DNA of 64,000 nt from an uncultured Sphingomonadaceae bacterium (lineage in GTDB: Bacteria > Pseudomonadota > Alphaproteobacteria > Sphingomonadales > Sphingomonadaceae): contig CANLSQ010000003.1 of NCBI GenBank assembly GCA_947493955.1, forward strand, positions 372,001-436,000, read 5' to 3'. Numbering within the stretch: the stretch's first letter is position 1; each line of letters opens with the position of its first letter. The notes beneath the pieces are model-generated. The model did no database searches. It saw nothing but the letters and a program-made list of their open reading frames with translations, and was not told the DNA's origin. Below, piece after piece: positions 618 through 40,743 of the stretch. Both the position numbers and the translations under genes were made by a program.

Positions 618-656
618 AACAGAAGAACAGAATGTTTAATCAACAAGGACAAATAT

Positions 657-1166: not shown

Positions 1167-1215
1167 ATAAAAGGGGGAGGGGACCCCAGTTTTAAGACAC
1201 TCAGGAGCGACAATA

Positions 1216-3584: not shown

Positions 3585-3591
3585 TACGCTT

Positions 3592-4680: not shown

Positions 4681-4688
4681 CGCTGGCC

Positions 4689-5468: not shown

Positions 5469-5494
5469 GGGGTCGTCTTAGGACGGGTGCCGCT

Positions 5495-10588: not shown

Positions 10589-10601
10589 GAGGAGAGAAGC
10601 C

Positions 10602-12129: not shown

Positions 12130-12130
12130 T

Positions 12131-13758: not shown

Positions 13759-13759
13759 T

Positions 13760-15271: not shown

Positions 15272-15300
15272 TTTCGGATCTCCTCAGGGATTATGAAGGC

Positions 15301-17746: not shown

Positions 17747-18198
17747 TATTGCGCGTCCGGGATGAGATAGATGACCACCAGATTATCATCGAAATCGACA
17801 ATACCAATCTCGCGCCCGATGCGCCCGTCATGGGTTTCAAGCCGTCCTTCTTCATACACTTTCAGGCCCAGTTTTCGCGCGCCTTCCATCACCGCATCGG
17901 GATCCGCGACATCCAGCACGATCGCACCGCGCCGAGGATGGGGGACAGGTTCCAGAGGAACGTTCTTGACCTCGGACAGAGCCATGACCCGCGGCTGGCC
18001 GGGGAGCGAAAGGATCGAAAAGCCGATTTCTGCTTCCTTTGGTATTTCAAATACCGGAAAGGAATAGCTGTCGGGATTATGGCCTTTGCGAAAGGTCTCT
18101 TCGAACCCCAGCACATCGCGGTAAAAAGTCAGCGCCCGGTCGATATCGGCCACGACAAAATTGCCGCGCTGAAATCGCGTCTGTTGTTTCTCACCCAC
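17746..18198 (-). CDS. VOC family protein (glyoxalase-like)
   Basis: 150 residues, one VOC unit with two beta-alpha-beta3 modules: QRGNFVVADIDRALTFYRDVLGFE at the N-terminus and RRGAIVLDVADPDAVMEGARKLG in the second half, ending in NLVVIYLIPD. Metal ligands are not all evident (the first position is N rather than H), so it may be a binding protein, isomerase or dioxygenase. Its last base is shared with the MFS gene start region, and it follows the MDR gene by 12 bases in the same operon. Confidence 0.85.
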   Translation of the reverse strand: MGEKQQTRFQRGNFVVADIDRALTFYRDVLGFEETFRKGHNPDSYSFPVFEIPKEAEIGFSILSLPGQPRVMALSEVKNVPLEPVPHPRRGAIVLDVADPDAVMEGARKLGLKVYEEGRLETHDGRIGREIGIVDFDDNLVVIYLIPDAQ

Positions 18199-18210
18199 TA
18201 ATATTCTCCC

Positions 18211-19305
18211 TCAATTCCACGTCTCTGGCTCACCGCGAACCGAGCAGCATTGCACCCCGACATTCTGGCCATAATAGAGGTTTGCCAGCGCCCGGGGCAT
18301 ATGTTGAAAACCCTTTTCGACATCCTGCACGGGCTTCAGCTTGCCGTCATGAATCCATCCCGCCAGATCATCCATCACCGCATCCCAGCGGTCCAGATGA
18401 TTATAGACAAAAAAGCCCTGCATTCGCGTTTCGGTGGCGCGCAGTCGGGTATAGTTGGACAGCTTGAACGGCTTGTTTCGCGTATATTCACTGATCGATC
18501 CGCACAGCACGACCCGGCTGTGAAGCCTCAAGCGTTCGAGACAGGCCTCCAGTGTTTCGCCGCCGACGTTGTCAAAATACAGGTCGATGCCATCAGGCCG
18601 CAGCTCGTCCAGTCTCGCTTCGATATTCTCGGATTTATAGTCAATCGCGTGGGAACAGCCATGTTCGAGAATGAAGGTGCATTTTTCGGGGCCACCCGCC
18701 ATACCGATAACATCACAGCCAACTACACTTGCGGCCATTTGACTGACCATCGATCCAACACCGCCAGCGGCTCCGGATAACACCATGCGGTCACCTTCTC
18801 TGGGATCGCCGCAGGCAAAGAGCCCGGCATGAGCCGAGAGGCCCGTCATACCCAATACGCCGGAACCGAGAGCCGCGGGCAAGCCGTTGGCCGGCATCCG
18901 GAAGAATTTTTCCTGCGGCGTCATTTTGGAGACCTTGTAAGTCTGCCAGCCCATCTGGCCCTGTACCATTTCGCCCTCACGCCAGTCGGGGTGGCGGGAC
19001 TTGACGACTTGCGCGACGCCGCGGCCATGGATGACATCACCGGGCTCCAGCACCCGCTCGCCGGCAGCGCCCGTGCCTTGCATATAGAAGCGCATGACAG
19101 GAGCGAGGCCGAGATAGTGGGTCTTGAGCAGTACTTCGCCTTCGCCGGGTTCCGGTATGTCCGTGACCGCCCATTCAAAATCTGACGGGACAACATTACC
19201 AACGGGCCGAGCCGCAACGCGCCATTGATAATTGGCGTCGTCGTCAATCTGCTTGCCCGCAGACAGGCCATCAAAGTCGGAAAGAGAGGAACCGGCGCCG
19301 GTCAC
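18211..19305 (-). CDS. NADP-dependent MDR-family oxidoreductase (enone/prostaglandin-reductase-like)
   Basis: 364 residues. GTG at 19305 is the only reasonable start; it lies directly behind the stop of the upstream VOC gene. The zinc-free MDR fold is evident: WRVAARPVGN, the GRGVAQVVKSRHPD segment, cofactor motif SGAAGGVGSMVSQMA near residue 190, FDNVGGETLEACL and LCGSISEYT. This branch reduces the C=C bond of enones and enals with NADPH. The first 28 residues before QWRVAARP are not normal for the family and may not all be translated. Two other members are at 45905 and 53584. Confidence 0.88.
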   Translation of the reverse strand: MTGAGSSLSDFDGLSAGKQIDDDANYQWRVAARPVGNVVPSDFEWAVTDIPEPGEGEVLLKTHYLGLAPVMRFYMQGTGAAGERVLEPGDVIHGRGVAQVVKSRHPDWREGEMVQGQMGWQTYKVSKMTPQEKFFRMPANGLPAALGSGVLGMTGLSAHAGLFACGDPREGDRMVLSGAAGGVGSMVSQMAASVVGCDVIGMAGGPEKCTFILEHGCSHAIDYKSENIEARLDELRPDGIDLYFDNVGGETLEACLERLRLHSRVVLCGSISEYTRNKPFKLSNYTRLRATETRMQGFFVYNHLDRWDAVMDDLAGWIHDGKLKPVQDVEKGFQHMPRALANLYYGQNVGVQCCSVRGEPETWN

Positions 19306-19779
19306 TCAGTCATGAACCTTCACGACCTGGTTCACTTCAAAGAAATAGCCATCCAGATCCCAGAAGGAGCAGCCGATCATATCCTTTTGCTTGCCATCAG
19401 CACCGGTCACGCTCCATTCGCGTGGTTCGCTATGGATGGTGGAACCGAGCGAACGGGCCCGTTCTACCGCGCCTTTTGCATCTTCCGATGCGACGACGAA
19501 AACCGGTGCGCCAAACTGGATTTCGGTGGGCAGCTCTTCCGGTGCATCCTGCTTGGGATCGAGCCATTCGAGCAGGCCGATCATGCCGATCATGTCATGT
19601 TCGCATTTCAGGATGATCAGGCGGGTTTTGTCACCCTTTTTACCGGCGGCGAGCTGCGTCCCGGACAGGGTGAAGGGCGTGTCCATCCACTTGGTCATGC
19701 CAAAGACGGTTTCATACCAGTTCGACGCGGCATCCCCGTCACGAACCATCAACGTCGTGCGTTTGATAATATCAGTCAT
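19306..19779 (-). CDS. VOC family protein
   Basis: 157 residues from ATG 19779, which overlaps the DUF1330 stop as ATGA. N-terminal module: KRTTLMVRDGDAASNWYETVFGM; second module: GAPVFVVASEDAKGAVERARSLG with DLDGYFFEVNQV at the end, where the final glutamate ligand belongs. It resembles glyoxalase or bleomycin-resistance type proteins. It is the second gene of the eight-gene operon. Reaction unknown. Confidence 0.85.
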   Translation of the reverse strand: MTDIIKRTTLMVRDGDAASNWYETVFGMTKWMDTPFTLSGTQLAAGKKGDKTRLIILKCEHDMIGMIGLLEWLDPKQDAPEELPTEIQFGAPVFVVASEDAKGAVERARSLGSTIHSEPREWSVTGADGKQKDMIGCSFWDLDGYFFEVNQVVKVHD

Positions 19780-20078
19780 GCGATTTTCGGGCTTTCTATG
19801 ACGAGGACCTGGCAATCGGCGATATCAGCGCGCAGCTTCTTGGCTTCCTGATATTCCGGACTGTTCCAGAATTTATGAACGGCGGCTTTGTCGGGCCATT
19901 CTGAAATCACCATCGACGCGCCGTCGCCAAAACCGCCTTCCAGAAGCTCTGCTCCCGGGCCGCGCAAGATATAGCGTCCGCCGAACTTCTCAACCAGAGC
20001 ACCGGCAGCAGCGCCATAGCCCTTGATGAATTTGTCGCGATCTGAAATTTTCGCAGTAACGATCATATAGGCCGGCAT
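19776..20078 (-). CDS. DUF1330 domain protein
   Basis: 100 residues, dimeric alpha-beta barrel fold of the DUF1330 family: MPAYMIVTAKISDRDKFIKGYG, GGRYILRGPG and EWPDKAAVHKFWNSPEYQEAKKLR. No reaction is established for the family. It is the leading gene of the minus-strand operon to 14678; the palindrome TTGTCCGGACAA lies only 20 bases upstream of its start codon, overlapping the likely promoter. Confidence 0.88.
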   Translation of the reverse strand: MPAYMIVTAKISDRDKFIKGYGAAAGALVEKFGGRYILRGPGAELLEGGFGDGASMVISEWPDKAAVHKFWNSPEYQEAKKLRADIADCQVLVIESPKIA

Positions 20079-20098
20079 GGGCGAGTCCCCTTCAAAAG

Positions 20099-20110
20099 TT
20101 GTCCGGACAA
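20099..20110. promoter_or_regulatory. Palindromic operator, copy 1 (TTGTCCGGACAA)
   Basis: Perfect 12-base palindrome in a 71-base gap, 20 bases upstream of the DUF1330 start. One of seven copies in this window, all intergenic. The position between promoter and start suggests repression by a dimeric regulator. Confidence 0.8.
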
Positions 20111-20149
20111 ATTACGCAAGAGACAGCTGATTGCAACCGCTATTTTACA

Positions 20150-21301
20150 CTATTTCGGCCACCTTGCCTTGTCGCGCAAATAGCGCCCGGAATCCCGTGT
20201 GTCCTTGGGTTGATATTCGGCAAAAAGATTGGGACCATAGCGGGATCGATACTGCTCGAACACCGGCAGGAACAGCTCGCTATGAACAATCGGCTGGCGG
20301 TTACGCGCCCTGAAATTGGCGATCGGGATGCGCGCAGAAACCAGTGTTTCAAAAGCGGTCTCGGCGATATTCATGACATCACCATCGGGCGCGTAAATGG
20401 CCGACCCACCACCGCCAGCATCAGCAAAATAATAGGGGTTTTCCGGCGATGCGGCATTGTTCGCTACCGCTGTATAGACGCCATTATAGAGGCTGGTCGC
20501 CTGCATATCGATGGGGTTAAAACCGCCCGTCGCGGTGCGCAGGATAATCTCCGCGCCTTTCATCGCAAAGGCCCGGAAGAGTTCCGGTTCGCGCTGTACC
20601 GAGCTAGTCGCAATATTACCGATTGGCGTACGTGTGACAGGGAGAACCGCGTCGGCTCCGTACATTTCGACATAGCGGTCCAGCACATCATAAATGGTGG
20701 TGGTAAACAGTTCGAAATCGCCCCCGAAAAAGCCCTTTATGTTGCGGGCCTTCCAGTGCTTGTCGACAATCTCACCTTTGCTATTCATGATTGTGGTGAT
20801 GGACAGCAGGCTTTCCGGCCAGTCCGGATCGCGCACATAGGAGCCGAAAACGAGCCAGCAACCATATTCGCGGGCCTTGCTGGCGAGCATCTCCGTCTCT
20901 TCACCAGGTATCTCGATGGCCGCCTTTCGCGCGTCCTGGATATTCCACTTATGATAATAGCCGGTAATCGGAAATTCGTGAAAGAAGATCAGATCTTTCG
21001 GACCGGAAAAACCATTTGCAGCGTCGATCAGGTCCATCATATGCTGCACATTGGCGCGGCGGGTCTGCTTCAGGTTACTGAGCTCGACCGGTACGACCCG
21101 CGCCTGGGCGACACCTAGCGAAATGATATCTCTGGCCAATGGCACCGTTTCATAACGGCCATCTGGCGTGATGCTGATCTTGTCCGGTCCGCCTTTCTTG
21201 GCGGCATGGGCGAAATCAGTCCAGCTTAATGCAGCTCCAGCCGCCAGACCCGCGCCCGCTGAAAAGAGGCTGCGCCGTGAAACACCGTCCTTTTGGTCCA
21301 T
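20150..21301 (-). CDS. Tat-exported nitrilase-fold (carbon-nitrogen hydrolase) protein lacking the catalytic Cys
   Basis: 383 residues. The N-terminus has a twin-arginine signal (SRRSLF followed by a hydrophobic alanine-rich stretch to about residue 33), so the protein is periplasmic. The nitrilase fold is recognisable: Glu109 in FFHEFPITGYY, Lys184 in DKHWKARN, and the strand before PELFRAFAMKGAEIIL. At the place of the catalytic cysteine the sequence reads IATSSVQREPEL: aligned on the PEL motif, Ser233 replaces Cys. It may be a non-hydrolytic relative or use serine. It follows the alpha/beta-hydrolase gene at 21315 by 13 bases in one operon. Confidence 0.82.
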   Translation of the reverse strand: MDQKDGVSRRSLFSAGAGLAAGAALSWTDFAHAAKKGGPDKISITPDGRYETVPLARDIISLGVAQARVVPVELSNLKQTRRANVQHMMDLIDAANGFSGPKDLIFFHEFPITGYYHKWNIQDARKAAIEIPGEETEMLASKAREYGCWLVFGSYVRDPDWPESLLSITTIMNSKGEIVDKHWKARNIKGFFGGDFELFTTTIYDVLDRYVEMYGADAVLPVTRTPIGNIATSSVQREPELFRAFAMKGAEIILRTATGGFNPIDMQATSLYNGVYTAVANNAASPENPYYFADAGGGGSAIYAPDGDVMNIAETAFETLVSARIPIANFRARNRQPIVHSELFLPVFEQYRSRYGPNLFAEYQPKDTRDSGRYLRDKARWPK

Positions 21302-21314
21302 GATAAAATTCCTC

Positions 21315-22268
21315 TCATTTCTCGCTCATATTGGGGGGATCATTGTCCAGGAACGGACGGATGACCGTGACATATTTTTCCGGAGCGAGATCGAAGCCGC
21401 CCAGCGTGATACCATTGATATGTATTAGCGTGGCTTGCGGGAACAAGGGCAAGGCTGCCTCTGTCTCTTGTTTGAGGCTACCGTCATTGGTGATCAGCAG
21501 GACAGGCTGCTCGACGTTCGGGAAACGCTCTTCGGCAGGATAGGTAAAGACGCCGTGATAGGCTTCCCAACAATGCGGATAACATTGCATCATGTCACCA
21601 AAATGCTCCTGCGCGCGCTCCAGGGACAGACCAGCTGTGGTCGCTGCTTTGGCAAAATCCCATTTTTTGGCGAGATGAGAGCCGTCTGACGCAACTTGTT
21701 CAGGCTTGGCGTTGGCTTGATAGGCCTTTTTGCGCTCAGCGCCGGTGAAGAAGGGTAGGCCGGGTAGGACCAGCCTGCGGACGAGGCCAGGATGCTGGAT
21801 GGCAAGCTCTGTCGCGATCAGGGTGCCTGTGTGATAACCGAGTAGATCAACCGGCTGTCCCTTTTTGCCGCCATATCCCATCGCCTTGAGGACGGTCGCT
21901 GCAGATTCGGCATAGCCATTAATGGATTGCAACTCCTTTGGCCGATCCGAATCGCCATAGCCGGGTGTATCAATGGCGATGACTGTCCGATCGCTTGCCA
22001 TGCGCCGCATGAACTTGAGGAAATAATCACTGGAATAAGGTGTGGGGTGGAATAGTACTAGCGGGGGTTTTGGGGATTCTGTCTCGGGGCGTGCGATGCG
22101 CACATGGACCTGGCCCAACGGTCCAGCGATAAAGTCGCGTTCTATTCTGATGGCAGGCGTTTCAACCGGAAAGGATATGCCGGATTTTGCCGAATCTACA
22201 TTGGCGGCGGAGAAAAGCGCGATAAACGACACATAGGTCAAAAAAATACAGTTCCGATAAATCCGCAT
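21315..22268 (-). CDS. Exported alpha/beta-hydrolase-fold protein with His at the nucleophile position
   Basis: 317 residues. The first 26 residues are a hydrophobic leader (IFLTYVSFIALFSAANVDSA), so it is probably periplasmic or membrane-anchored. The core matches the protein at 15600-16406: FHPTPYSSD loop, DTPGYGDSD turn and the elbow LLGYHTGTL, with His146 (codon CAC) where serine is expected. No C-terminal catalytic histidine is seen (GITLGGFDLAPEKY). It is first gene of a two-gene unit with the nitrilase-fold protein, and a copy of the operator lies 50 bases upstream. Probably not a serine hydrolase. Confidence 0.83.
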   Translation of the reverse strand: MRIYRNCIFLTYVSFIALFSAANVDSAKSGISFPVETPAIRIERDFIAGPLGQVHVRIARPETESPKPPLVLFHPTPYSSDYFLKFMRRMASDRTVIAIDTPGYGDSDRPKELQSINGYAESAATVLKAMGYGGKKGQPVDLLGYHTGTLIATELAIQHPGLVRRLVLPGLPFFTGAERKKAYQANAKPEQVASDGSHLAKKWDFAKAATTAGLSLERAQEHFGDMMQCYPHCWEAYHGVFTYPAEERFPNVEQPVLLITNDGSLKQETEAALPLFPQATLIHINGITLGGFDLAPEKYVTVIRPFLDNDPPNMSEK

Positions 22269-22318
22269 CCAACGTCCCTCGATCCCAATTTCGCATTGCG
22301 TATCAGAATATCTAGGAA

Positions 22319-22330
22319 ATGTCCGGACAA
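22319..22330. promoter_or_regulatory. Palindromic operator, copy 2 (ATGTCCGGACAA)
   Basis: Core TGTCCGGACA is perfect, with one mismatch in the outer base. It lies 50 bases upstream of the minus-strand hydrolase gene at 22268, on the left side of the divergent promoter region. Confidence 0.75.
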
Positions 22331-22433
22331 ATTATCGGATAGGATTAATCTGATCTGCTATGCTTTCTTTCCGCGTTGCACGTAAGCGTTGTATTTTTGT
22401 GACAGTCTTTGCGTTCAAATAGCAGTGATCAAT

Positions 22434-22451
22434 AATTTGTCTGGACAAATT
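22434..22451. promoter_or_regulatory. Palindromic operator, copy 3 (AATTTGTCTGGACAAATT)
   Basis: 18-base palindrome, perfect except for the central T/G pair. It lies 69 bases upstream of the first TonB receptor start, 103 bases from copy 2, so the two divergent units of this 252-base region each have their own site. Confidence 0.8.
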
Positions 22452-22520
22452 ATCTTGATAGTGAAAGTTTAATCCTGAGGAAGAGAGTAAGCTGGCAACC
22501 GCTGGTATCAGGGAGGAAAA

Positions 22521-25022
22521 ATGAAAAATATCTTTAAAGCTGCGCTTCTGGCAGCAACTGCCGCTGTTCCGGTTTCGGCATATGCGCAAAATTTGCCCGC
22601 AGATGATGTGTCGGTTGAGGATGATTCGAATGTCATCATTGTCACGGCACGAAAAGTGTCGGAAAACTTACAGGAAGTACCGTCAACCATCGCCGTCGTG
22701 ACGTCTGACTCCATTGATAATCTGGCGCTGGACAGCGTTGCCGACATTTCCCGTGTGACCGCGGGACTGACATTTGATGATAGCTTTGGACGCGACTCCA
22801 ATCGGCCGGTTATTCGCGGCCAGGCCAATATTCTGGGCGATTCCGGTGTCGCCGTATTCATTGACGGTATCTATTTTAGCGGCTCGATTGGTGACTATAA
22901 TGTCGACAATATTGAACGGATAGAGGTCGTCAAAGGACCGCAAAGCGCACTCTATGGTCGTAACACCTATTCTGGTGCGATAAATATCATCTCCAAGGGA
23001 CCAGCTGATCAGCTGGAAGGTAATATCACCCTCGATGTTTCAGAGAATGACCGGTACGAAATCACCGGCGGTATTAGAGGGCCAATAACTGACTCGATCA
23101 GCGCCGCAGTGTCCGCTCGTTTTTATGATTTTGGCGGAGAGTTTACCAATTTGTTTGATGGCGAGAAAGTTGGCGATCAGTCATCTTACTCTTTCTCCGG
23201 TGCATTCCAGTTCGACAATGACGGGCCCTTTACCGCTTCGCTTCGGACTTACTACAACCGCACCGATGACGGTCAGCCTGCGATTTTCGCTCAGGATACC
23301 AGTGCCAATAACTGTTTCACCGACAATGGTGCGCTATATGGCGGTGGTGGCCGTTATTTCTGCGGCACCATCAGACCGCAAGCGATAAACACAGATTATA
23401 CACGACAATTTGCCGACCCGGATGATGTTGGACTGGAAGCCAAGACGTTCAACGCCGCCTTCCGCATGGATTATGAATTTAGCGATCAGGTCACTTTAAC
23501 CTCATTGACCGGGTATAATTATCGCCGGGAAATTTTGAACACCGACGGTGACTATTCGCCGACCAGTTTCGAAACCGCTATATTCGCGCGTTTTCCAGGA
23601 GGTGCTCCAATTGGTTTCGGCCCGGCCGGTCCGATTTTTCCATTTAATTTTGTCGGTTCGTCGGTTGACTTTTCATTCTCTAACAACACGCTAACTGAAG
23701 ACTGGTCGCAAGAATTGCGCCTGGCTTATGATGGCGATCGCTTTGATTTCCTGATTGGCGGTTATTATTTCGACCAGGATAGTGACAGCCAAGATATTCG
23801 GGTAGTGCCTGCAGATGCTGCAGCCCTTGCTGCTGCAAGTTATAACGCTGCTCTGGCGAATGAGCAGGCGATTTGTGTAGCCAATCCCAATTGCGATTCG
23901 TTGGTGGATGCGGATCAACTTTTGTTCCCCGGGCCATCCACACCTAACTCCCGCGATCTCAACAGCCAGAATATTCGCAACTGGGCAATTTTCGGATCCG
24001 CCAGTTTTGATATCACGGATCGACTGACCTTGGGTGTTGAAGGCCGTTACGCGTCAGAGCGCGTGCGGCAGTCGACCATTGATCGTGATGAAGGAGATCC
24101 CTTTCCGGCGCCCGTTATGGTTCGCGAGACTTTCAAGAAATTTTCTCCACGGATCACGCTGGACTATAAGATTACCCCGGACAATCTGATCTATGCAGAT
24201 TTCGGACAGGGTCAAAAGCCCGGAGGCTTTAATGGTGTGACCGCAATTAATGCAGGCGTGCCTTCTTATGAGGAAGAAGAGGTCGATGCTTTTGAAATCG
24301 GTACTAAAAATACGTTCGCCGACGGAAAACTTATCTTCAACGCGGCGGCTTTTTACAATGACATAACCGGTTACCAGTTGACCCAGAATGTCCAGTCGGC
24401 GGCCAATGCGGTCTCCGCGATCGTAAATGCTGGTGATGCCCGGGTACTGGGTCTGGAAGTTGAGCTGCTCGCGCGGCCTAATCCAAACTGGACGTTCACC
24501 GCAAACTATGCGCTGGCGGACAGCAAATTTACTTCCGGGTTTGACGAAAACCAAGGCGTCCTCAATGACGTGGCAGATGACGGTTTGAATAATTGCTCAA
24601 CCGGCTTTCAGTTCCCCGAGCTTGGTGGTTGTACGGATGCCAAAGCGGTGTTCGGTTCCATTGACGGAAAGCGGATACCGCGGGCACCTGTGCATCAGTT
24701 TTTCGTGGATGCCGATTACCGCACACCGATTGGCAGTGGCGATTGGGAATTTTTTGCGGGCGCTAATATAACCGTTGTTTCCAGCAGTTTTGCACAAGTC
24801 CACAATCTAGCCAAAACCGGCGGCTCCGCCGTAGCCGATGCACGATTGGGATTTGAGAATGATAATTTCAAAATCCAGGCCTATGTGAAGAACTTTACGG
24901 ATGAAGATGCTGTGGCGCAAATTATCCGGTACGCGGATTCCAGTGACAATTTCCGGCGGAGTTTCATCGCTGGCCTACGTCCTGGTCGTCGCTTCGGGCT
25001 AATCCTCTCGGCGAAATACTAG
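22521..25022 (+). CDS. TonB-dependent outer-membrane receptor 1
   Basis: 833 residues. Signal peptide about 1-22 (FKAALLAATAAVPVSAYAQ), TonB box DSNVIIVTARK at about 35-45, plug domain with VPSTIAVVTSD, VIRGQANILGDSGVAVFIDGI and GPQSALYGRNTYSGAINI, then a 22-strand barrel ending in RRFGLILSAKY. GGAGGAAAA precedes the ATG. It carries a large ligand across the outer membrane using TonB energy. Sphingomonad genomes have many such receptors for plant or xenobiotic molecules, so the ligand cannot be inferred. Its promoter has the GTCTGGAC palindrome, and a clear terminator follows. Confidence 0.95.
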   Translation: MKNIFKAALLAATAAVPVSAYAQNLPADDVSVEDDSNVIIVTARKVSENLQEVPSTIAVVTSDSIDNLALDSVADISRVTAGLTFDDSFGRDSNRPVIRGQANILGDSGVAVFIDGIYFSGSIGDYNVDNIERIEVVKGPQSALYGRNTYSGAINIISKGPADQLEGNITLDVSENDRYEITGGIRGPITDSISAAVSARFYDFGGEFTNLFDGEKVGDQSSYSFSGAFQFDNDGPFTASLRTYYNRTDDGQPAIFAQDTSANNCFTDNGALYGGGGRYFCGTIRPQAINTDYTRQFADPDDVGLEAKTFNAAFRMDYEFSDQVTLTSLTGYNYRREILNTDGDYSPTSFETAIFARFPGGAPIGFGPAGPIFPFNFVGSSVDFSFSNNTLTEDWSQELRLAYDGDRFDFLIGGYYFDQDSDSQDIRVVPADAAALAAASYNAALANEQAICVANPNCDSLVDADQLLFPGPSTPNSRDLNSQNIRNWAIFGSASFDITDRLTLGVEGRYASERVRQSTIDRDEGDPFPAPVMVRETFKKFSPRITLDYKITPDNLIYADFGQGQKPGGFNGVTAINAGVPSYEEEEVDAFEIGTKNTFADGKLIFNAAAFYNDITGYQLTQNVQSAANAVSAIVNAGDARVLGLEVELLARPNPNWTFTANYALADSKFTSGFDENQGVLNDVADDGLNNCSTGFQFPELGGCTDAKAVFGSIDGKRIPRAPVHQFFVDADYRTPIGSGDWEFFAGANITVVSSSFAQVHNLAKTGGSAVADARLGFENDNFKIQAYVKNFTDEDAVAQIIRYADSSDNFRRSFIAGLRPGRRFGLILSAKY

Positions 25023-25039
25023 TCGGCTTTCTCCCCTTA

Positions 25040-25075
25040 AAAACCCGCTGCCCATGTTCTGGCGGCGGGTTTTTT
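25040..25075 (+). terminator. Rho-independent terminator after TonB receptor 1
   Basis: Stem AACCCGC-TGCC / GGCG-GCGGGTT with an eight-base loop, followed by TTTTTTC. It begins 17 bases after the receptor stop codon and separates the two receptor genes. Confidence 0.85.
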
Positions 25076-25108
25076 CTGATTTGCGATGCAAACTAGGCAC
25101 AAATATCG

Positions 25109-25131
25109 CGCCAAAGCGGAAAACTTTGGCG
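25109..25131. promoter_or_regulatory. Inverted repeat CGCCAAAG-N7-CTTTGGCG
   Basis: Perfect 8-base arms with a 7-base spacer, nine bases before operator copy 4. It could be a second weak terminator (GTTTTC follows) or a binding site for another regulator in the receptor 2 promoter. Confidence 0.45.
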
Positions 25132-25139
25132 GTTTTCAA

Positions 25140-25157
25140 AATTTGTCTGGACAAATT
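25140..25157. promoter_or_regulatory. Palindromic operator, copy 4 (AATTTGTCTGGACAAATT)
   Basis: Identical over 18 bases to copy 3. It lies 67 bases upstream of the second TonB receptor start, with copy 5 centred 47 bases downstream of its centre. Confidence 0.8.
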
Positions 25158-25189
25158 AGTCGATCGGTGGAATCTGGATTATAACAAAA

Positions 25190-25201
25190 TTGTCCGGACA
25201 A
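25190..25201. promoter_or_regulatory. Palindromic operator, copy 5 (TTGTCCGGACAA)
   Basis: Perfect 12-base palindrome 23 bases upstream of the receptor 2 ATG. Together with copy 4 it gives two sites in one promoter, spaced 47 bases centre to centre (about four and a half helical turns). Confidence 0.8.
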
Positions 25202-25224
25202 ATAAATCAAGGGGAGATGTGGGG

Positions 25225-27714
25225 ATGCGATTAATATTGAAGGCTGCGCTGTTATCGGCGACGATTCTAAGCAGTTCGCCCGTTTACGCACAAGATGCGG
25301 CTGAAGAAGGTGTTGATGACAATTCCGATGTCATCATAGTTACCGCTCGTAAGAAAGAAGAGACACTGTTGGACGCGCCTTTGGCGGTTACCGTCATTGG
25401 CGAAACGGAGCTTGAAGGCGCTGGTTTCCAGGATATTACAGAGGTTACCAAGGCGGCACCGGGTGCTTTTGTTGAACCCTTTGGCGATAATACTAATGGC
25501 ACGGCGCGCATTAACTCAACGCCACGGTTTCGCGGCATTACGTTGATCAGCGGCAACCGCTTGCAGCAGACAGCAACGGTATTTCTGGATGGCGTATTCC
25601 TCAGCGGCGGCGCGCAGACCATTGGTATTAATGAATTGCAACGGGTGGAAATTATCAAAGGTCCGCAATCGGCTTTGTTTGGCCGCAACACTTTTGCTGG
25701 TGCGATCAACTATGTGACCAAGGATCCCAGCGACGAGTTCCAGGTTGATCTGAGCGTCACGGCGGCCACCCGGGATGAATATAATTTCGCGGCAGGGGTA
25801 GAAGGACCGATTACAGACGGTCTGTCTTTTCGCTTGAGCGGTAATTATGATACGAAAGACGGCCATTTTGACAATGTTGCTGTCCCTGGGCAGCGGCTTG
25901 GCGATGAATCGCAATGGTCGATCGCGGGCACGTTGCTGATCGAACCAAGCGACGGCATCCGCCTCAAATTGAGAGGGTCTTATCAGGAAATTGATGACGG
26001 TCCGGCCGCTTCCGTTTTGTACTTTGGTACCAGCCAGCACAATTTCGGGGGCTTTCAGTTCGTAAACGGAATTGCCGATCAAACGGATTCGGTGGTGCCT
26101 TCGCCGGGTGGTGGCCGCGGGGAATCGGTTTTCCGCGGACGGATCACGGAGCCTCCTGCCGATCGCATCGGGCTGAACACAGCTCCGGAAAACCTTCAGG
26201 CATTTCTCGGCTTTTTGAATGATGGGCGTTCCGATCCAAGTGACGCGATATTTGATTTCAAATATAATCCGACGACGGTGGATGATTTCGGTTTGAACCT
26301 TGATTCATTGCGTCTGAGCGCAGTTGGATCTGCGGACCTGACTGACAATATCGAGTTCAGTTTTCTGGCGGGATATAACAAGGAAAGATTTGGTTTTTAC
26401 ACAGACTTTGATTCAACTCCCGACAATAGTTTCACGAGCTTTACCGCACGTGAAACAGAAGATGTGACGGTTGAAGGGCGCCTGTCGGCATCTTTGTTTG
26501 ATGATAGCTTGAATCTCTCTGCCGGAGCGAGCTACGTCAAAATTGATATTGATGAACTGGGCGGAACGGCAAGTTTTTTTGGTCCGCCGATCTTCTTTGG
26601 TGACATTTTCCGGTCTGATCCCTTTGTGTCGGGTGCTGAAACTCTGGGCTTTTTTGGTTCGCTGGATTACCAAATTACGGACCAGATATCGATCACGCTC
26701 GAGGGCCGTTTCCAGAAAGACGAATTCAGCAATCCCGAGGTAAATGACGGTCTAGCGACGCCGATCTCGCCAGGTGAAATTAACAGCTTCCTGCCACGCG
26801 GAACGTTGCGGTATCAGCCGTCAAATTACACGACATTCTATGCAACCTACAGCGAAGGCAACTTGCCAGGCGGCTTCAATCCACAGATCGCTGGACTGGA
26901 TGCACAGCAACTGGCCGAACTGGCCGCTTTGGCACCCGATGCCAGAGTGCTTTTTGGCGAAGAACAGCTGACCAACTATGAATTCGGATGGAAGCAACAA
27001 CATCCTAGCGGTATCTTTGCTTTCAACCTCGCCGCCTTTTACATGAAACGGAGCGACGAAATTTTCAGCTCCATTGAGGTGATAACCGACACGGATCCAG
27101 GAGCGCCCAATCCGGTTCGTACGGTCAACTTCACGTCGAACGGGGCGAGTACCAATATCTACGGTGTCGAGTTCGATGCGACAGTGAACGTCAGTGAAAA
27201 CCTGTCCATGCAGGGCTCTTTTGCCTATATTGATGCGAAGATTTCATCCTTTCCTGCCGACGGTGGAACGGGAGATTTTGGCGATATCTTTGGCCCCAAT
27301 GCAGATATTTCCGGACAACGGGCACCGCGCTTCCCACCTTTGACGCTCTCATTGGGCGCAACCTATGAGGATGATTTCAATGGTTTTGGCGGCTTTTTCG
27401 ATAGCTGGTATTTGCGCAGCGACCTTTATTTTACGGGCGACTATTTCGACAGCAATGCCAATGTCGCCGAGGTCGAGGAAGCAACGGATGTCAATCTTCG
27501 CCTGGGCCTGACGGGCCAGAATGCGGGTATCGAATTTTTCGTCACCAATCTTCTGAACGAAGACGCCCCGACAACGGCCTTCAACTTTGCGGATACAAGC
27601 TTTGGTACCCGTGCACTTCCCGGCGGGTTCTTCAACTTTGGCCGCGAAGGCGACCGTGTTGGCCTGCGTGACAAGCGGCAATTTGGCATCAAGTTGAAAT
27701 ATAGGTTCAACTAG
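25225..27714 (+). CDS. TonB-dependent outer-membrane receptor 2
   Basis: 829 residues from ATG 25225, which follows GGGGAG and begins a good signal peptide (LKAALLSATILSSSPVYAQ). An earlier in-frame start would run through the operators and is unlikely. TonB box NSDVIIVTARKKEE, plug motifs RFRGITLI, TATVFLDGVFLSGG and GPQSALFGRNTFAGAINYVTKDP, then the barrel with a C-terminal YRFN. It is the paralogue of receptor 1 and shares its operator, so both are made under the same signal. Ligand unknown. Confidence 0.95.
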   Translation: MRLILKAALLSATILSSSPVYAQDAAEEGVDDNSDVIIVTARKKEETLLDAPLAVTVIGETELEGAGFQDITEVTKAAPGAFVEPFGDNTNGTARINSTPRFRGITLISGNRLQQTATVFLDGVFLSGGAQTIGINELQRVEIIKGPQSALFGRNTFAGAINYVTKDPSDEFQVDLSVTAATRDEYNFAAGVEGPITDGLSFRLSGNYDTKDGHFDNVAVPGQRLGDESQWSIAGTLLIEPSDGIRLKLRGSYQEIDDGPAASVLYFGTSQHNFGGFQFVNGIADQTDSVVPSPGGGRGESVFRGRITEPPADRIGLNTAPENLQAFLGFLNDGRSDPSDAIFDFKYNPTTVDDFGLNLDSLRLSAVGSADLTDNIEFSFLAGYNKERFGFYTDFDSTPDNSFTSFTARETEDVTVEGRLSASLFDDSLNLSAGASYVKIDIDELGGTASFFGPPIFFGDIFRSDPFVSGAETLGFFGSLDYQITDQISITLEGRFQKDEFSNPEVNDGLATPISPGEINSFLPRGTLRYQPSNYTTFYATYSEGNLPGGFNPQIAGLDAQQLAELAALAPDARVLFGEEQLTNYEFGWKQQHPSGIFAFNLAAFYMKRSDEIFSSIEVITDTDPGAPNPVRTVNFTSNGASTNIYGVEFDATVNVSENLSMQGSFAYIDAKISSFPADGGTGDFGDIFGPNADISGQRAPRFPPLTLSLGATYEDDFNGFGGFFDSWYLRSDLYFTGDYFDSNANVAEVEEATDVNLRLGLTGQNAGIEFFVTNLLNEDAPTTAFNFADTSFGTRALPGGFFNFGREGDRVGLRDKRQFGIKLKYRFN

Positions 27715-27733
27715 ACTGGCAATGCCCATAGAT

Positions 27734-27765
27734 AAAAAGGCGTCTCTCAGGAGGCGCCTTTTTTT
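27734..27765 (+). terminator. Rho-independent terminator after TonB receptor 2
   Basis: Imperfect stem AAAAAGGCG-T-CTC / GGAG-G-CGCCTTTTTTT with a short loop and a run of seven T. It starts 19 bases after the receptor stop and may also serve the minus-strand hydrolase gene ending at 27803. Confidence 0.85.
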
Positions 27766-27802
27766 GATATTTGCGGTGCGGATAGAATATAGTGCGCTTC
27801 CC

Positions 27803-28663
27803 TTACCCGGTTAAAATTGCCACGAGTTCGCCGGGTGCCGTGATCATAGCGTCATGGCCAGTGGCCAGCGCATGATAGGTCCAGCTTGGGTCTGTTTGGA
27901 CCTGCGCGGCATGATAGGGAAAGCTGCTATTGGTCAGGACCGGCGCGGTGCAATGGATGTAACTGCGCTTCAAGTCCAGCGATCCACCATTTTCAAGTTG
28001 GATCGGGTCCAACCATGTCTTCAGCGGATGGGGTGTCAGTTTCTGTGCGACCCATTCATAGCCGGGATGATCTTTCGGAATGCCGAGAATATCAGGCGGG
28101 AAGGCGGCCATGGCAATACCGTCGGGCGCCAAGCTTTCCAATGTTTTGCGGGTTTGTTCGACGACTGCCGGGCTGCGTTCTGGTCCTTGCGTGATCATTG
28201 TTTCGCCAGCATTCGGCATGGCGGCATCGAGATAGATAATCTCGCTGATCCGATCCTTCATTGCGTCAGCAACACCTGTAATCACCATCCCGCCATAGCT
28301 GTGACCGACTAGCACTATGTCATTCAAATCATAATAGCCGATCAGCGACGTGATGTCCGTGATATGCGTATCGAGCCCGATATCCGCCGACAACAGATGC
28401 GCACGCTCCGCGAGGCCGGTCAGCGTCGGCGTGAATACCCGGTGACCTTGTGCTTCCAGTTGCGACCGGACATCGCGCCAGCACCAGCCGCCATGCCAGG
28501 CACCATGGACCAGAACGAAAGTCTGGGCGGTGTTCGTGGACCTTGGCTCTTGATGACCGGAACGTGACATGGCGTTGCCTGCCACTGAAGTCGCAAGACC
28601 TGTTGCTGTTACCGCAGTAATAAATGCGCGGCGACTGGTTAGCGTTTTTGGACTGTCACCCAT
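27803..28663 (-). CDS. Tat-exported alpha/beta hydrolase, methylesterase/hydroxynitrile-lyase-like
   Basis: 286 residues. A twin-arginine leader (TSRRAFITAV plus hydrophobic stretch to about residue 29) directs it to the periplasm. The mature part has FVLVHGAWHGGWCW, the nucleophile elbow LVGHSYGGMVI with normal serine, a DAAMPNAGE segment and a C-terminal GHDAMITAP with the catalytic histidine. This matches plant-type salicylate methylesterases and related small esterases, so it should hydrolyse a small ester. It is 17 bases behind the flavin oxidoreductase gene and is likely co-transcribed from the promoter with operator copy 6. Confidence 0.9.
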   Translation of the reverse strand: MGDSPKTLTSRRAFITAVTATGLATSVAGNAMSRSGHQEPRSTNTAQTFVLVHGAWHGGWCWRDVRSQLEAQGHRVFTPTLTGLAERAHLLSADIGLDTHITDITSLIGYYDLNDIVLVGHSYGGMVITGVADAMKDRISEIIYLDAAMPNAGETMITQGPERSPAVVEQTRKTLESLAPDGIAMAAFPPDILGIPKDHPGYEWVAQKLTPHPLKTWLDPIQLENGGSLDLKRSYIHCTAPVLTNSSFPYHAAQVQTDPSWTYHALATGHDAMITAPGELVAILTG

Positions 28664-28680
28664 GGCTTCCCAATTCTCTG

Positions 28681-30126
28681 CTAGACAAGGGCCAGCACTC
28701 TCGCTGCTGCTCTTTCAGCGGTTTCGAGCGCACCTTCCATACCAGGCCAGTTTTGTGTCATATGTTCGCCGGCAAAATGAAGCCGCTCGCCCTGATGCTG
28801 GACGGTGCTGGCAAGGGCGGCGCCGAGGCCCGTTCCAATATGGTGATAGATACCGCGTGCAAAAGGCTCCTTTTGCCAGCTGAACGTGTCGAGATAGGAC
28901 AATTTCCCTTTTGCCGATGGCCTGATCTTCTCAATGCGTGTGATTATTTCGGCGGCAGCCTGTTGCGGTTCCATCTTGTCGAGAGCTTCTGCAGCGGGGC
29001 CGTTGACCCATATCTTGAGCAATGGCGGGTCGCTGTTCAGCGTGAAGACCCGGCCGATTAGCGGGTCATCACTCCAGATATATTCCGGTAGGTCATCATC
29101 TTTCCAGAAGGCATCGGACGCGCGCAGGAAAACAAAACTGGCCTTTGTATAGGGCAGTTGCCGGATGGTATCGCGCAGGTCTGGCGATAGGGCGGCGTCG
29201 ATTTTCATATTTCTGACGGTGCTGAAAGGGGCTGTGCAAATTACCTGACGCGCTCCATATTTGCGTCCGTCGGTCAGGCTGACTTCCACGCCATCACCCT
29301 TGTCCTCGATTGCCGACACCGGGGCGTTTAATATGATATCCGAATTTATGGCATTGGTCATGGCATCAGTCATACGCTGAGACCCGCCGCGGATAAATTT
29401 GGTCGGTCCGGGATTTGCCTTGCGCGCAGTGCTGAACATGGAAAGCGTCCGCTGCATGTGGAGCATCGACATTTCTTCTAGCGTACGACCGTTCAGATTG
29501 GCGTTCATGAAACGCATCGCTTCACCTGATGCACCTTGCGCCTTTAACCAGCTGGCAAGGGAGATATCCTTCGCGGTGATTGTCGGAGACATCCAGTCGG
29601 TGGTCGTTTCGAGCGCCGGCAGTTTGCGCATATAGGAGAAAAAAAGTGCATCCGGGCTCGTCTCCTTCTCATCATCCGCCAGCATATTTTGCGGCAGGTC
29701 CGGCCACTGATCCTTCAGGAAATTCTGCCCCCGGACATTATAAAGATAACCGCCTTGACCGCTTTCGGGCAGATAGCGCTCGACGCTCAATCGATCGGCA
29801 ATGGTGTTGAAGCGCTTATAGGCGGCGCCAATCTGGACACCGCCGGCGTCGGGCGTTCCGGGCAGGTTGTCCAGCGTATATAGCCGTCCGCCAGTCCGAT
29901 TATTGCCTTCCAGCAACATGACTTTCAATCCGGCCTGTTCCAGCTGCCAGGTTGCGTGCAATCCCGCCAGTCCGGCGCCGATCACAATCACATCTGCGGT
30001 AGTTTTGCCCCATGCCATGCGCGGTGCGGCACAGGCGACAAGAGACGCGCTGGCACCACCGATAAAAGCGCGCCTACTGATTGCCCGCCCATTTATCGCA
30101 TATCTACCGTCTTGTTTCATGTTCAT
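28681..30126 (-). CDS. Tat-exported flavin monoamine-oxidase-like oxidoreductase, possible lipoprotein
   Basis: 481 residues from ATG 30126; ATG 30120 is also possible and neither has a clear ribosome site. The leader ISRRAFIGGASASLVACAAP has the twin-arginine motif and a lipobox-like LVAC (Cys32), so it may be a Tat lipoprotein. The FAD motif VIVIGAGLAGLHATWQLE follows, with GGRLYTLDN and the C-terminal HFAGEHMTQNWPGMEGAL typical of the amine oxidase family. It would oxidise an amine or another C-H/C-N bond with O2 in the periplasm. Operator copy 6 lies 37 bases upstream, shared with the divergent gene. Confidence 0.9.
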   Translation of the reverse strand: MNMKQDGRYAINGRAISRRAFIGGASASLVACAAPRMAWGKTTADVIVIGAGLAGLHATWQLEQAGLKVMLLEGNNRTGGRLYTLDNLPGTPDAGGVQIGAAYKRFNTIADRLSVERYLPESGQGGYLYNVRGQNFLKDQWPDLPQNMLADDEKETSPDALFFSYMRKLPALETTTDWMSPTITAKDISLASWLKAQGASGEAMRFMNANLNGRTLEEMSMLHMQRTLSMFSTARKANPGPTKFIRGGSQRMTDAMTNAINSDIILNAPVSAIEDKGDGVEVSLTDGRKYGARQVICTAPFSTVRNMKIDAALSPDLRDTIRQLPYTKASFVFLRASDAFWKDDDLPEYIWSDDPLIGRVFTLNSDPPLLKIWVNGPAAEALDKMEPQQAAAEIITRIEKIRPSAKGKLSYLDTFSWQKEPFARGIYHHIGTGLGAALASTVQHQGERLHFAGEHMTQNWPGMEGALETAERAAARVLALV

Positions 30127-30163
30127 ATGTTGACAGAAACCACCGGTACAAGGCAAGGTAAAT

Positions 30164-30175
30164 TTGTCCGGACAA
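30164..30175. promoter_or_regulatory. Palindromic operator, copy 6 (TTGTCCGGACAA)
   Basis: Perfect 12-base palindrome inside AATTTGTCCGGACAAAT. It sits in a 67-base divergent gap, 37 bases from the flavin oxidoreductase start and 18 bases from the start of the plus-strand gene, so one site can control both. Confidence 0.8.
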
Positions 30176-30193
30176 ATAAGAAAAGGCGGTCAG

Positions 30194-30955
30194 GTGAACA
30201 GATATCTAAACTATTTGATAGTGACGGTCTTAGCGATAATGGCGGTTCCCGTGGGAGCGGCGGATGAGCCGCTGGAGGGTGCTGCGATATTGGCAATGGC
30301 CCGGGGAGCGGCGGGTGGTGATGATTGGGCCAATGCCCGGACTTTGACCTTGTCCGGTCACGCCGTTTTCTATGGACCCAAAGGCCACGAACCGCGCACC
30401 AGAGCCAGCAGTTACCGAATGTGGCGCGTCTTTGATCCCGATCGTACTGTTGCCCATGGCGCCGATGGCAAGGTCCGTATCATCGCTAAAGATACGGACA
30501 AGCTGATCTTCGAAGTGGGCTATGATGGAGAAACCACTTGGACGGAACGCGGGATCACGCCCAAGGCAGACGCGGACAAGTTCTGGGCGAGCAATTTTGG
30601 TTTCGGGATTATCCGTCAGGCTAACAAGCCCGGCTTTGTCGCCACCCGCTTGCCAGATGACGACGTCGGCGGCCATGCGCTCTACATGGTCGAGCTAACC
30701 GATCCAAAGGGCGGCAAAACCCTTTTCGGCATTGACCAGCAAAGCTATGCTATCCGCACCATGGGCTTTCGCACGCCAAGGGGTTGGCATTTGCGGGTTT
30801 ATGATGATTTCGTGCGTCTCGAAGATCCGCGTTGGCTACAGGCGCGTCATGTCACGCTCTATTATGATGGGCGCAAATCCAATGAGGTTTTCTGGACAGA
30901 GACCAAGGTGAATGCGGAAATTGATCCGGCGCTGTTTGCACCACCGTCCCAATGA
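30194..30955 (+). CDS. Exported protein of unknown function
   Basis: 253 residues from GTG 30194 (AAAGGCGG upstream); an earlier TTG start would lie inside the operator. Residues 1-23 form a signal peptide (LIVTVLAIMAVPVGAA). The mature part is rich in predicted beta strands and has repeated aromatic and charged positions (SGHAVFYGPKGHEPRTRASSYRMW, GYDGETTWTERG), a pattern like LolA-type or outer-membrane lipid-sorting domains. I do not recognise a named family. Its stop codon directly abuts the stop of the convergent gene (TGATCA). Confidence 0.8.
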   Translation: MNRYLNYLIVTVLAIMAVPVGAADEPLEGAAILAMARGAAGGDDWANARTLTLSGHAVFYGPKGHEPRTRASSYRMWRVFDPDRTVAHGADGKVRIIAKDTDKLIFEVGYDGETTWTERGITPKADADKFWASNFGFGIIRQANKPGFVATRLPDDDVGGHALYMVELTDPKGGKTLFGIDQQSYAIRTMGFRTPRGWHLRVYDDFVRLEDPRWLQARHVTLYYDGRKSNEVFWTETKVNAEIDPALFAPPSQ

Positions 30956-31762
30956 TCAGCCGCGGAAATTTTGGCTCGTCACATCCGAAGCTCTCTCGGC
31001 ACCTTTGATCGTGCAACTGGCCTGCATCCAACGCAGGTTTAGGCCAACCCGACTGGCATTGATATCGGCCCAGCTATAGCTGACGGCGCTGTCGGGATTG
31101 TCGGGTTTGTGGACATAAAGAACCATGCTCGGGCGGTTAGTGCTGGGTTTCGGCCAATAGACCGCTCGCATGCGCAGGATTAACGGTTCCGCTCCGCTCT
31201 CTCCCCCTCCGATCATGACCCGTCCGCCTTGATCATGCAGGCTCAGTTTTTGGACGAACAACCAGTCCGGGCTGCCATCTGCCTTGGGTTCGATCTTCTT
31301 CGCTGCGGCCCAGCATTCGACAGGGCGGGCGCGTTTCAATTGGGTTTCGGTGCCATCGGCAAAGCGCAGTTTCAATCCGTCCTTTTTTACACCAATGATT
31401 TGATAATCCTGCAGACAGGCTTTCCTGTTTTGCAGCTTGCTATAGGTCCAGCCGGTATCCGAACGATCAAAATAGCGCGTGCATCCACCCAGTGTCAGGC
31501 TGTCGCGTTCCACGCCTTCGGCAGCATGTCCTTTCAACGGGGTTGCAACCGCTTTGCCGAATGCATCTGTGCGTGTGACGATCAGTCCATCGTCTTGCTT
31601 TTCGATTTTTAGCGAAATCCACGGTGGTGGAGTCCGGCCCGCATCCTTTTCAAAATAGGCTTGCTCTTCATTTGTATAAACACCAAGCAATTGCTGATCC
31701 AGCATTGCGCCATGTTGCGATCCGACGGCGAGCGTCAAGGCAGAGAGGCCGGTGAAAAACAT
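30956..31762 (-). CDS. Exported protein of unknown function
   Basis: 268 residues from ATG 31762, chosen because AAAGGA precedes it and the operator lies 21 bases upstream; a longer frame would cross the operator. A weak leader (MFFTGLSALTLAVGSQ) suggests export. The body has paired cysteines (GGCTRYF, KACLQDY, VECWAA, ASCTIKG), consistent with disulfides in the periplasm. No known domain recognised. It is convergent with the other unknown exported protein, each having its own copy of the operator. Confidence 0.75.
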   Translation of the reverse strand: MFFTGLSALTLAVGSQHGAMLDQQLLGVYTNEEQAYFEKDAGRTPPPWISLKIEKQDDGLIVTRTDAFGKAVATPLKGHAAEGVERDSLTLGGCTRYFDRSDTGWTYSKLQNRKACLQDYQIIGVKKDGLKLRFADGTETQLKRARPVECWAAAKKIEPKADGSPDWLFVQKLSLHDQGGRVMIGGGESGAEPLILRMRAVYWPKPSTNRPSMVLYVHKPDNPDSAVSYSWADINASRVGLNLRWMQASCTIKGAERASDVTSQNFRG

Positions 31763-31780
31763 GGTGTTATTCCTTTGTAT

Positions 31781-31798
31781 AATTTGTCCGGACAACTT
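31781..31798. promoter_or_regulatory. Palindromic operator, copy 7 (AATTTGTCCGGACAACTT)
   Basis: The inner 12 bases TTGTCCGGACAA (31784-31795) are perfect; the outer right arm has one change. It lies 18 bases upstream of the start of the minus-strand exported protein and is the last copy found on this side. Confidence 0.8.
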
Positions 31799-40325: not shown

Positions 40326-40329
40326 CGCC

Positions 40330-40737: not shown

Positions 40738-40743
40738 CCGGCG

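Follow-up and report, generated by a model that had tools for sequence, protein, structure and literature searches.

The window, a stretch of 64,000 nucleotides (C3:372001-436000), holds part of an island whose contents include at least three TonB receptors, MFS transporters, amidohydrolases and itaconate-type CoA enzymes (Table 1). The core catabolic operon encodes an HpcH/RipC-like lyase (which starts left of the window), a MaoC/RipB-like hydratase, an acyl-CoA dehydrogenase, two CoA-transferases III, two MmgE/PrpD proteins, a PaaK-like ligase, an amidase, HapK-like, SDR and PuuE-like proteins, an enoyl-CoA hydratase and a glyoxalase. It resembles a RipABC-type itaconate module in its RipC-like lyase (228 bits), RipB/Ich-like hydratase (240 bits) and mesaconate-type CoA-transferase (222 bits), but all three scores fall under the curated cut-offs (375, 340 and 700, respectively) and the operon adds PuuE-like, amidase and MmgE/PrpD genes. 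The eight-gene operon comprises DUF1330, glyoxalase, zinc dehydrogenase, a further glyoxalase, MFS, alpha/beta hydrolase, YCII and CMD genes. Codon-position G+C favours two opposing frames that are false, namely a (+) frame over R1 (window 4677-5498) and a (-) frame over a 228-aa (+) gene. The 228-aa protein gives a poor structure model (pLDDT 61.5), and a fold search returned no match for it at E<=0.001.

Table 1. Features of the island within the window (window coordinates).
Feature	Position	Strand	Remarks
Core catabolic operon around and antisense to R1	1..14662	+	Probable extent, from strand and spacing
R1, GntR/HutC-subfamily regulator (wHTH + UTRA), 259 aa	4689..5468	-	Pfam, co-occurrence
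Eight-gene operon	14678..20078	-	Probable extent
Operator AGTTGTCCGGACAAAT	20097..20112		5' of eight-gene (-) operon
Alpha/beta hydrolase + carbon-nitrogen hydrolase pair	20150..22268	-	
Operator AAATGTCCGGACAAAT	22317..22332		5' of alpha/beta-hydrolase + CN-hydrolase pair (-)
Operator ATTTGTCTGGACAAAT	22435..22450		5' of TonB receptor 1 (+)
TonB-dependent receptor 1	22521..25022	+	
Operator ATTTGTCTGGACAAAT	25141..25156		Distal site, TonB receptor 2 (+)
Operator AATTGTCCGGACAAAT	25188..25203		Proximal site, TonB receptor 2 (+); 47 bases from distal site
TonB-dependent receptor 2	25225..27714	+	Probable ATG 3' of both operators
Alpha/beta hydrolase + flavin amine-oxidase-like protein	27803..30126	-	
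Operator ATTTGTCCGGACAAAT	30162..30177		Between divergent amine-oxidase-like (-) and unknown (+) genes
Uncharacterised protein, exported by look of N-terminus	30194..30955	+	No Pfam family
Uncharacterised protein, possibly exported	30956..31762	-	No Pfam family
Operator ATTTGTCCGGACAACT	31782..31797		5' of second unknown gene (-)

Seven copies of a palindrome had been picked out in an earlier, sequence-only reading. All of them exist, but two positions (22434 and 25140) were each 3 bases off; the 12-base cores lie at 20099, 22319 (ATGTCCGGACAA), 22437, 25143, 25190, 30164 and 31784. With up to two mismatches the window contains 24 matches, against 7.98 expected and a largest count of 17 in 100 shuffles. 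The likely start codons, chosen by visual inspection of spacing and Shine-Dalgarno-like sequence, are 17 to 72 bases away from the sites, in keeping with the position close 5' of genes reported before (18 to 69 bases). Whether every copy is intergenic, as had also been claimed, hinges on the choice of start, because some copies sit in longest frames: the claim holds with the likely starts and fails with the longest frames. The copies at 25143, 25190 and 31784 fall within the longest ATG/GTG frame, as does that at 30164 once TTG starts are permitted, yet all four remain 5' of the likely start.

These seven palindromes make up roughly half of the full set. A refined 16-base operator, ANWTGTCYRGACAWNT, occurs at 13 places in the 3.4-Mb genome, all within C3:352038-403797 (52 kb), six to the left of the window and seven inside it. 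The exact TTGTCYGGACAA is found at 10 places genome-wide, every one within C3:352040-403795. The motif is therefore absent elsewhere, as first stated, only as regards the remaining window, which cuts a cluster that continues leftward; nor does the regulon span 12 kb, since the operators extend over about 52 kb and include that of the operon enclosing R1 (C3:371749, some 250 bases before the window begins). When one mismatch is permitted the genome scan yields 66 match lines and the reversed control 44, and one-mismatch matches outside the cluster are thus mostly background. All 14 sites used for a matrix carry an A at -8 and a T at +8 relative to the centre. This set includes C3:352054 (TTGTCTCGACAA), which lies 14 bases from C3:352040 and departs from the 16-base pattern; a further place with one mismatch (C3:361845), the fifteenth, falls within a coding sequence and was omitted. 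The 52-kb stretch that holds all 13 sites also contains R1, and the idea of a single regulon is supported.

The motif had been read as a GntR/FadR-type operator with no such regulator nearby; such a regulator does lie in the window, in the form of R1. Its gene is about 15 kb from the seven palindromes. The N-terminal winged helix of R1 matches PF00392 (GntR) at 60.9 bits (cut-off 27), the top GntR HTH match of the genome, and the C-terminal effector domain matches PF07702 (UTRA) at 55.7 bits (cut-off 23.8). Because the UTRA domain is present, R1 is HutC-like and not FadR-like. A structure model (pLDDT 74.9) matches NagR, DasR and PhnF. The top NCBIfam match is HutC, the histidine utilisation repressor (TIGR02018), but its 91.6 bits are far under the cut-off of 220, and the scanned island proteins include no histidine-utilisation gene. 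A plasmid search with R1 returned matches all below 60% identity, those listed being at 30-35% and outside sphingomonads (14 records).

The HutC-subfamily consensus is NyGTMTAKACNy, with a usual spacing of 4 bases between GT and AC, and FadR-subfamily sites mostly have 3 bases and in some groups 2 (PMC4494728, in excerpt). The 13 genome-wide sites, which R1 probably binds, share GTCYRGAC, a GT-N4-AC palindrome with A/T-rich flanks. The TA centre of GTMTAKAC, which is typical of HutC sites and not strictly defining, is replaced by CG in 126 of 143 extended sites, by TG in 9 and by CA in 8. The GntR assignment of the motif is borne out, with a probable reader of the HutC kind; the FadR assignment is not, as GT and AC are 4 and not the usual 3 bases apart and R1 is HutC-like.

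The operator and R1 occur together. Among 32 same-genus genomes the operator is present in 21 (3-13 places each), exactly those with an R1 orthologue (at least 73% identity), and the 11 without an orthologue have 0 operators; the reversed control gives 1 place in all 32. Two other regulators can be weighed by the same comparison. A LysR-type regulator of the island (C3:368359-369375, -), whose gene lies between the sites at C3:368257 and C3:369968, is very unlikely to read them: its orthologue (E<=1e-60) is found in just 14 of the 32 genomes and not in G003, G008, G010, G011, G014, G020 or G026, each of which has at least three operators. It is also unusual for a LysR protein to read an even palindrome that lacks T-N11-A symmetry, and this counts against the present one as the reader. 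It is scarcely credible that the sites are read by an FCD-type (FadR-subfamily) GntR (C3:338379-339035), as the FadR assignment would suggest. Its gene lies 13 kb left of the first site, but it occurs (E<=1e-40) in 31 of the 32 genomes, including all 11 operator-free ones, and is not found in G014 (97% complete), which carries 8 operators; the 4-base spacing, against mostly 3 in the FadR subfamily (PMC4494728, in excerpt), is a further point against it.

Across 296 genomes of the order, at least two sites are present in 25 of 28 genomes with an R1 homologue (E<=1e-40) and in 2 of 268 without; the reversed control gives 1 place in each of 9 genomes. With the exact 12-mer the counts are 26 of 28 and 2 of 268, respectively. 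The genomes are related, and Fisher values for this co-occurrence overstate independence. The exceptions with a homologue are G323 and G045, which have no 16-base site, and G274, which has just one; those without an R1 match above the cut are G041 and G048, with two sites each, and 17 further genomes with one. G016 (67% complete) has a single 12-mer and lacks both the 16-mer and an R1 orthologue. G007 was considered as a counter-example and rejected, having five exact 12-mers without R1 but 0 of the 16-base operator. Four of these five lie within open frames of at least 150 aa, and five stretches of 14-18 kb around them match only three island proteins, two of them TonB receptors (31% and 23%) and the third at 55%. 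On these grounds we discount the G007 12-mers and take them as chance or as the site of another protein. R1 sits in the core operon, and the core enzymes share its co-occurrence with the sites; R1 is favoured over them because it is the only DNA-binding protein among them in Pfam scans.

In 71 loci around R1 homologues (named records, 49-100% identity) there are 138 exact 12-mers against 0 in the reversed control, with at least one exact site in 63; the eight loci without one all cover less than the full 20 kb (4-16 kb). The sites proved to be conserved upstream of orthologous genes, the condition on which the sequence-only reading had staked its regulon. A site or near-site lies within 250 bases upstream of the homologue's own gene in 14 of the 71, and the R1 gene of this strain has no operator upstream. 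The inverted repeat of the core is perfect or nearly so, which would suit a repeat element or an RNA hairpin; the probability that the palindromes are such elements, or chance, is nevertheless practically negligible, given that only about 16 bases are common to the island's sites, that a site recurs near 15.6 kb in most oriented R1 loci, and that the site count tracks R1 and the reversed palindrome hardly occurs.

NagR/YvoA of Bacillus subtilis (GntR/HutC; dre operators; 4wwc/2wv0) is the best solved-structure match of R1 by sequence (E 1.2e-15, residues 22-254) and its best fold match (E 2.2e-13), with a TM-score of just 0.42 as the model sets the domains differently. The NagR operator, GTGGTCTAGACCAC (PMC4333415, in excerpt), and that of the R1 island share GTC..GAC and a 4-base gap from GT to AC. 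In an alignment of all 71 R1 homologues, the equivalents of NagR Arg48 and Gly69 are retained in 71/71. By contrast, Arg38, which in NagR reads one G of its operator (PMC4333415, in excerpt), is replaced by Ser, Thr, Asn or Ala in 71/71 and is never Arg, and a T stands in the present operator where NagR has that G. Further differences from NagR are the centre, CG (or TG/CA) and not TA, the A-8/T+8 pair, kept in 143 of 167 sites, and the lack of amino-sugar genes among the scanned island genes. PheR of Sphingobium is IclR-type and has a different motif (PMC13273656, in excerpt).

On the computed sites, their confinement in the genome, the domains of R1, the co-occurrence and the conservation of sites and DNA-reading residues, we conclude, with a probability of about 0.92, that the palindromes are operators of R1, a HutC-subfamily GntR repressor of a catabolic island of about 50 kb. 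The regulon is new, the kind of regulator already known. By analogy with the family, an R1 dimer would read the half-sites TTGTC/GACAA shortly 5' of start codons and silence the island, that is the TonB receptors, MFS carriers, amidase, PuuE-like and CN hydrolases and CoA-dependent C-C cleavage enzymes. A substrate-derived effector would then bind the UTRA domain and R1 would leave the DNA, so that uptake and breakdown genes may be switched on together. Repression rather than activation is suggested by family custom. R1 might instead bind the sites and activate, or both activate and repress depending on effector, and the two site pairs in the window, 47 and 118 bases apart, could allow looping or activation; this seems unlikely, since the operators are near start codons and NagR, the nearest characterised relative, blocks transcription (PMC4333415, in excerpt).

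As to the substrate, a speculative and rather improbable proposal would have R1 control the whole of an undescribed sphingomonad route for alkyl-substituted maleimides, fed by tetrapyrrole pigments (chlorophyll, bilins, heme). The PuuE-like and amidase enzymes would open the imide, LeuCD/HMG-lyase-like and RipBC-like enzymes would cleave alkyl-maleate or itaconate-type acids, and the TonB receptors would import pigment fragments. Among the matches listed from open-access literature, nothing on substrate or regulon points to the island, and the operator string occurs solely in an unrelated fly study.

An uncharacterised regulator family is hereby paired with its likely operator across Sphingomonadales and two Steroidobacter-type genomes, and this pairing therefore marks out a single coherent catabolic island of about 50 kb. 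Counting operators offers a genome-only test for carriers of the pathway, and the GntR recognition code is put to a natural test by the joint loss of the Arg38 equivalent and its G. The effector of R1 would reveal which substrate this conserved and unexplained pathway handles.

The seven palindromes that the sequence-only reading reported in the window are present, well above chance expectation. Its claim that they occur nowhere else holds in part: all 10 exact genome-wide copies of the 12-base core (TTGTCYGGACAA) fall within C3:352040-403795 (C3 being a contig of the source genome), but the cluster extends to the left of the window, which covers C3:372001-436000 and whose boundary splits it in two. 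In a matrix of 14 sites, from which a coding-region match at C3:361845 was excluded, every site carries A at -8 and T at +8, one on each side, which defines a refined 16-base operator, ANWTGTCYRGACAWNT. It is found at 13 places across the 3.4-Mb genome, all 13 in a catabolic island of ~50 kb. These operators precede the likely start codons (picked by eye) by ~12 to 72 bases, and operon membership of the target genes was assigned from spacing and strand.

Proposed operators with their predicted target genes, and other features of contig C3
Feature	Position	Strand	Genes or products
Island	C3:352038-403797		catabolic genes with operators
Operator	C3:352038		operon with alpha/beta hydrolase, LeuC/LeuD-like, HMG-lyase-like, CoA-transferase; divergent operon with isochorismatase, two PuuE-like, aldehyde dehydrogenase, methyltransferase
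Operator	C3:359296		two unknown genes, divergent
Operator	C3:365806		MFS, FAD oxidase, CN hydrolase, methyltransferase
Operator	C3:368257		TonB receptor
Operator	C3:369968		228-aa protein, apparently membrane
Operator	C3:371749		DUF1838; divergent core operon
Operator, window			DUF1330-glyoxalase-dehydrogenase-MFS operon
Operator, window			hydrolase pair
Operator, window			TonB receptor 1
Two operators, window			TonB receptor 2
Operator, window			amine-oxidase-like and unknown gene
Operator, window			second unknown gene
Core operon	window 1-14662, starting further left	+	
R1	window 4689-5468	-	GntR and UTRA domains
FCD-type GntR gene	C3:338379-339035	-	
Fourth TonB receptor	C3:340725		
Hydrophobic protein	C3:359351-360043	+	
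Hydrophobic protein	C3:370025-370711	+	
Operator-free stretch	window 38661-44776		Rieske oxygenase-like protein, LuxR-type regulator, E1 dehydrogenase pair
Operator-free stretch	window 50710-51117		ChsH2-like OB-fold protein

The same reading saw no suitable regulator nearby, having overlooked R1, the proposed reader of the palindromes, whose gene lies within the core operon on the opposite strand. Five GntR helix-turn-helix (HTH) matches are found in the genome, four of them above the Pfam cut-off, and R1 is the best. Its domain composition places R1, as judged from sequence, in the HutC subfamily, and its closest solved relative is NagR/YvoA, both by sequence and by the fold of the predicted R1 model. 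The protein is identical to R1 of Sphingorhabdus sp. EL138, and the window's genus was assigned from matches of this kind to named genomes, among which records of the source genome itself may be missing.

Within the genus, R1 orthologues (73-100% identity) are found in 21 of the 32 genomes compared. The refined 16-mer occurs in exactly these 21, with 3 to 13 places per genome, and is absent from the 11 others; its reversed control has one place across all 32. The exact 12-mer TTGTCYRGACAA is present in 23 genomes, including two that lack R1 (G007, with five places, and G016, with one).

Two other candidate readers were rejected. At E<=1e-60 the LysR regulator of the island was found in 14/32 genomes, and seven genomes with sites gave no match to it. 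The FCD-type GntR was found at E<=1e-40 in 31/32, among them all 11 site-free genomes; the one genome in which it was not found, G014, has eight sites. The FCD-type gene, left of the window, adjoins an Asp/Glu/hydantoin racemase-like gene and another TonB receptor gene, and the three perhaps form a separate control unit.

Across the order Sphingomonadales, at least 28 of 296 genomes hold an R1 homologue at E<=1e-40, a search in which at most eight candidates were scored per genome and some homologues may be missed. Two or more refined sites occur in 25 of these 28, one in G274 and none in G323 and G045; among the 268 genomes without an R1 match, 19 have at least one and two have two. The reversed 16-mer has one place in each of 9/296 genomes. 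Two or more exact 12-mers (TTGTCCGGACAA) are found in 26/28 genomes with an R1 homologue versus 2/268 without; in G101, one of the latter two, control places are equally many. Because the genomes share ancestry, Fisher values for these co-occurrences are not probabilities of independent events. G136, from another genus of the same family, has an R1 homologue (48%) and, in a 3.4-Mb genome, 36 exact 12-mers and 15 refined operators; among the few matches listed, its sites are scattered along contig C1, and its R1 regulon may be widened. Four genomes of one other family (G041, G048, G034, and G054) contain one or two refined operators and no R1 match above the cut, and may hold a more distant R1.

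Named genomes scanned with 13 aligned R1 orthologues as query yielded 72 loci, of which one in Latilactobacillus (L149) was dropped as it matched the HTH only (29%). The 71 kept, 15 of the window's genus group and 56 more distant, carry labels that include Sphingorhabdus, Parasphingorhabdus, Sphingomonas, Sphingobium, Novosphingobium, Erythrobacter, Altererythrobacter, and Blastomonas; Steroidobacter agaridevorans and Peristeroidobacter agariperforans, which lie outside the order, are also among them. Up to 10 kb on each side of these R1 genes (1.34 Mb in total) contain 138 exact 12-mers versus 0 reversed ones, 43 versus 12 with one mismatch, and no reversed 16-mer. At least one exact site is found in 63/71 loci, the eight without being all on short pieces (4-16 kb). 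A-8 and T+8 are kept in 143/167 sites; the centre of these 143 is CG in 126, TG in nine and CA in eight.

The gene arrangement is also conserved. R1 is antisense between CoA-transferase and MmgE/PrpD genes in 65/71 loci (in the remaining six, one or the other was not found), and beyond the genus the core genes are found in 46 to 53 of 56 loci, with median identities of 53-84%. In 13/15 genus loci the operator before the core operon is embedded in conserved DNA, with much of the neighbourhood variable; the other two have no site in the compared range. The TonB receptor 1 promoter has DNA matches at 15 places in 13/32 genus genomes; of these places, 10 foreign loci were inspected: seven have the same site pair, and the other three have two or three sites that resemble it in sequence.

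HutC sites usually have four bases between GT and AC, and FadR sites mostly three (PMC4494728). The proposed R1 operator has the four-base gap; its centre is CG rather than the TA of the HutC consensus. In the NagR-DNA complex, Arg38 and Arg48 read two adjacent guanines and Gly69 of the wing contacts the minor groove (PMC4333415). The equivalents of Arg48 and Gly69 (R61 and G82) are kept in 71/71 R1 homologues, whereas Arg38 is replaced by Ser (47), Thr (19), Asn (3), or Ala (2). From the NagR contacts, this pattern predicts an operator with one G kept and its neighbor changed, as is seen: the G read by Arg48 is retained and the adjacent G is replaced by T.

R1 is most likely a repressor, since the sites lie near start codons, double sites occur, and members of the HutC subfamily, such as NagR, typically work by effector release. 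With a slightly loose pattern, 14/71 homologues have a site no more than 250 bases ahead of the regulator's own gene (five exact 12-mers, six with ATGTC at one end and three with GTACAA), which suggests autoregulation in these 14; R1 of this strain has no site upstream of its own gene. As R1 is antisense within the operon proposed to be under its control, operon readthrough could affect its expression.

The core operon encodes a lyase like RipC, a hydratase like RipB/Ich, and a CoA-transferase of the mesaconate type, all under the NCBIfam cut-offs. A PuuE-like product matches PuuE allantoinase at E 1.6e-63 and is also under its NCBIfam cut-off. The operon further encodes an amidase and several MmgE/PrpD enzymes, of which one has a match to cis-aconitate decarboxylase (E 6.5e-23). 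In the left arm, the LeuC-like protein, which has a LeuD-like partner, and the HMG-CoA-lyase-like protein score above subfamily cut-offs, and matches of the isochorismatase-family protein include N-carbamoylsarcosine amidohydrolase. These enzyme families suggest that a ring imide or ureide is opened, nitrogen is removed, and an itaconate- or alkylmaleate-like acid is cleaved in a CoA-dependent step; on the boldest reading, the substrate would be a tetrapyrrole-derived maleimide. Operators stand directly upstream of three TonB receptors, and a fourth lies outside the operator stretch. The two hydrophobic proteins, each with an operator upstream, are related (26% identity) and lack a Pfam family; relatives of the one nearer the window occur in 44/71 R1 loci. 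The two operator-free stretches are perhaps a second catabolic cluster.

Among the matches listed, this regulon was not found in the open-access literature, and R1 is filed here as an addition to the HutC subfamily, with an altered operator centre and an altered DNA-reading residue.
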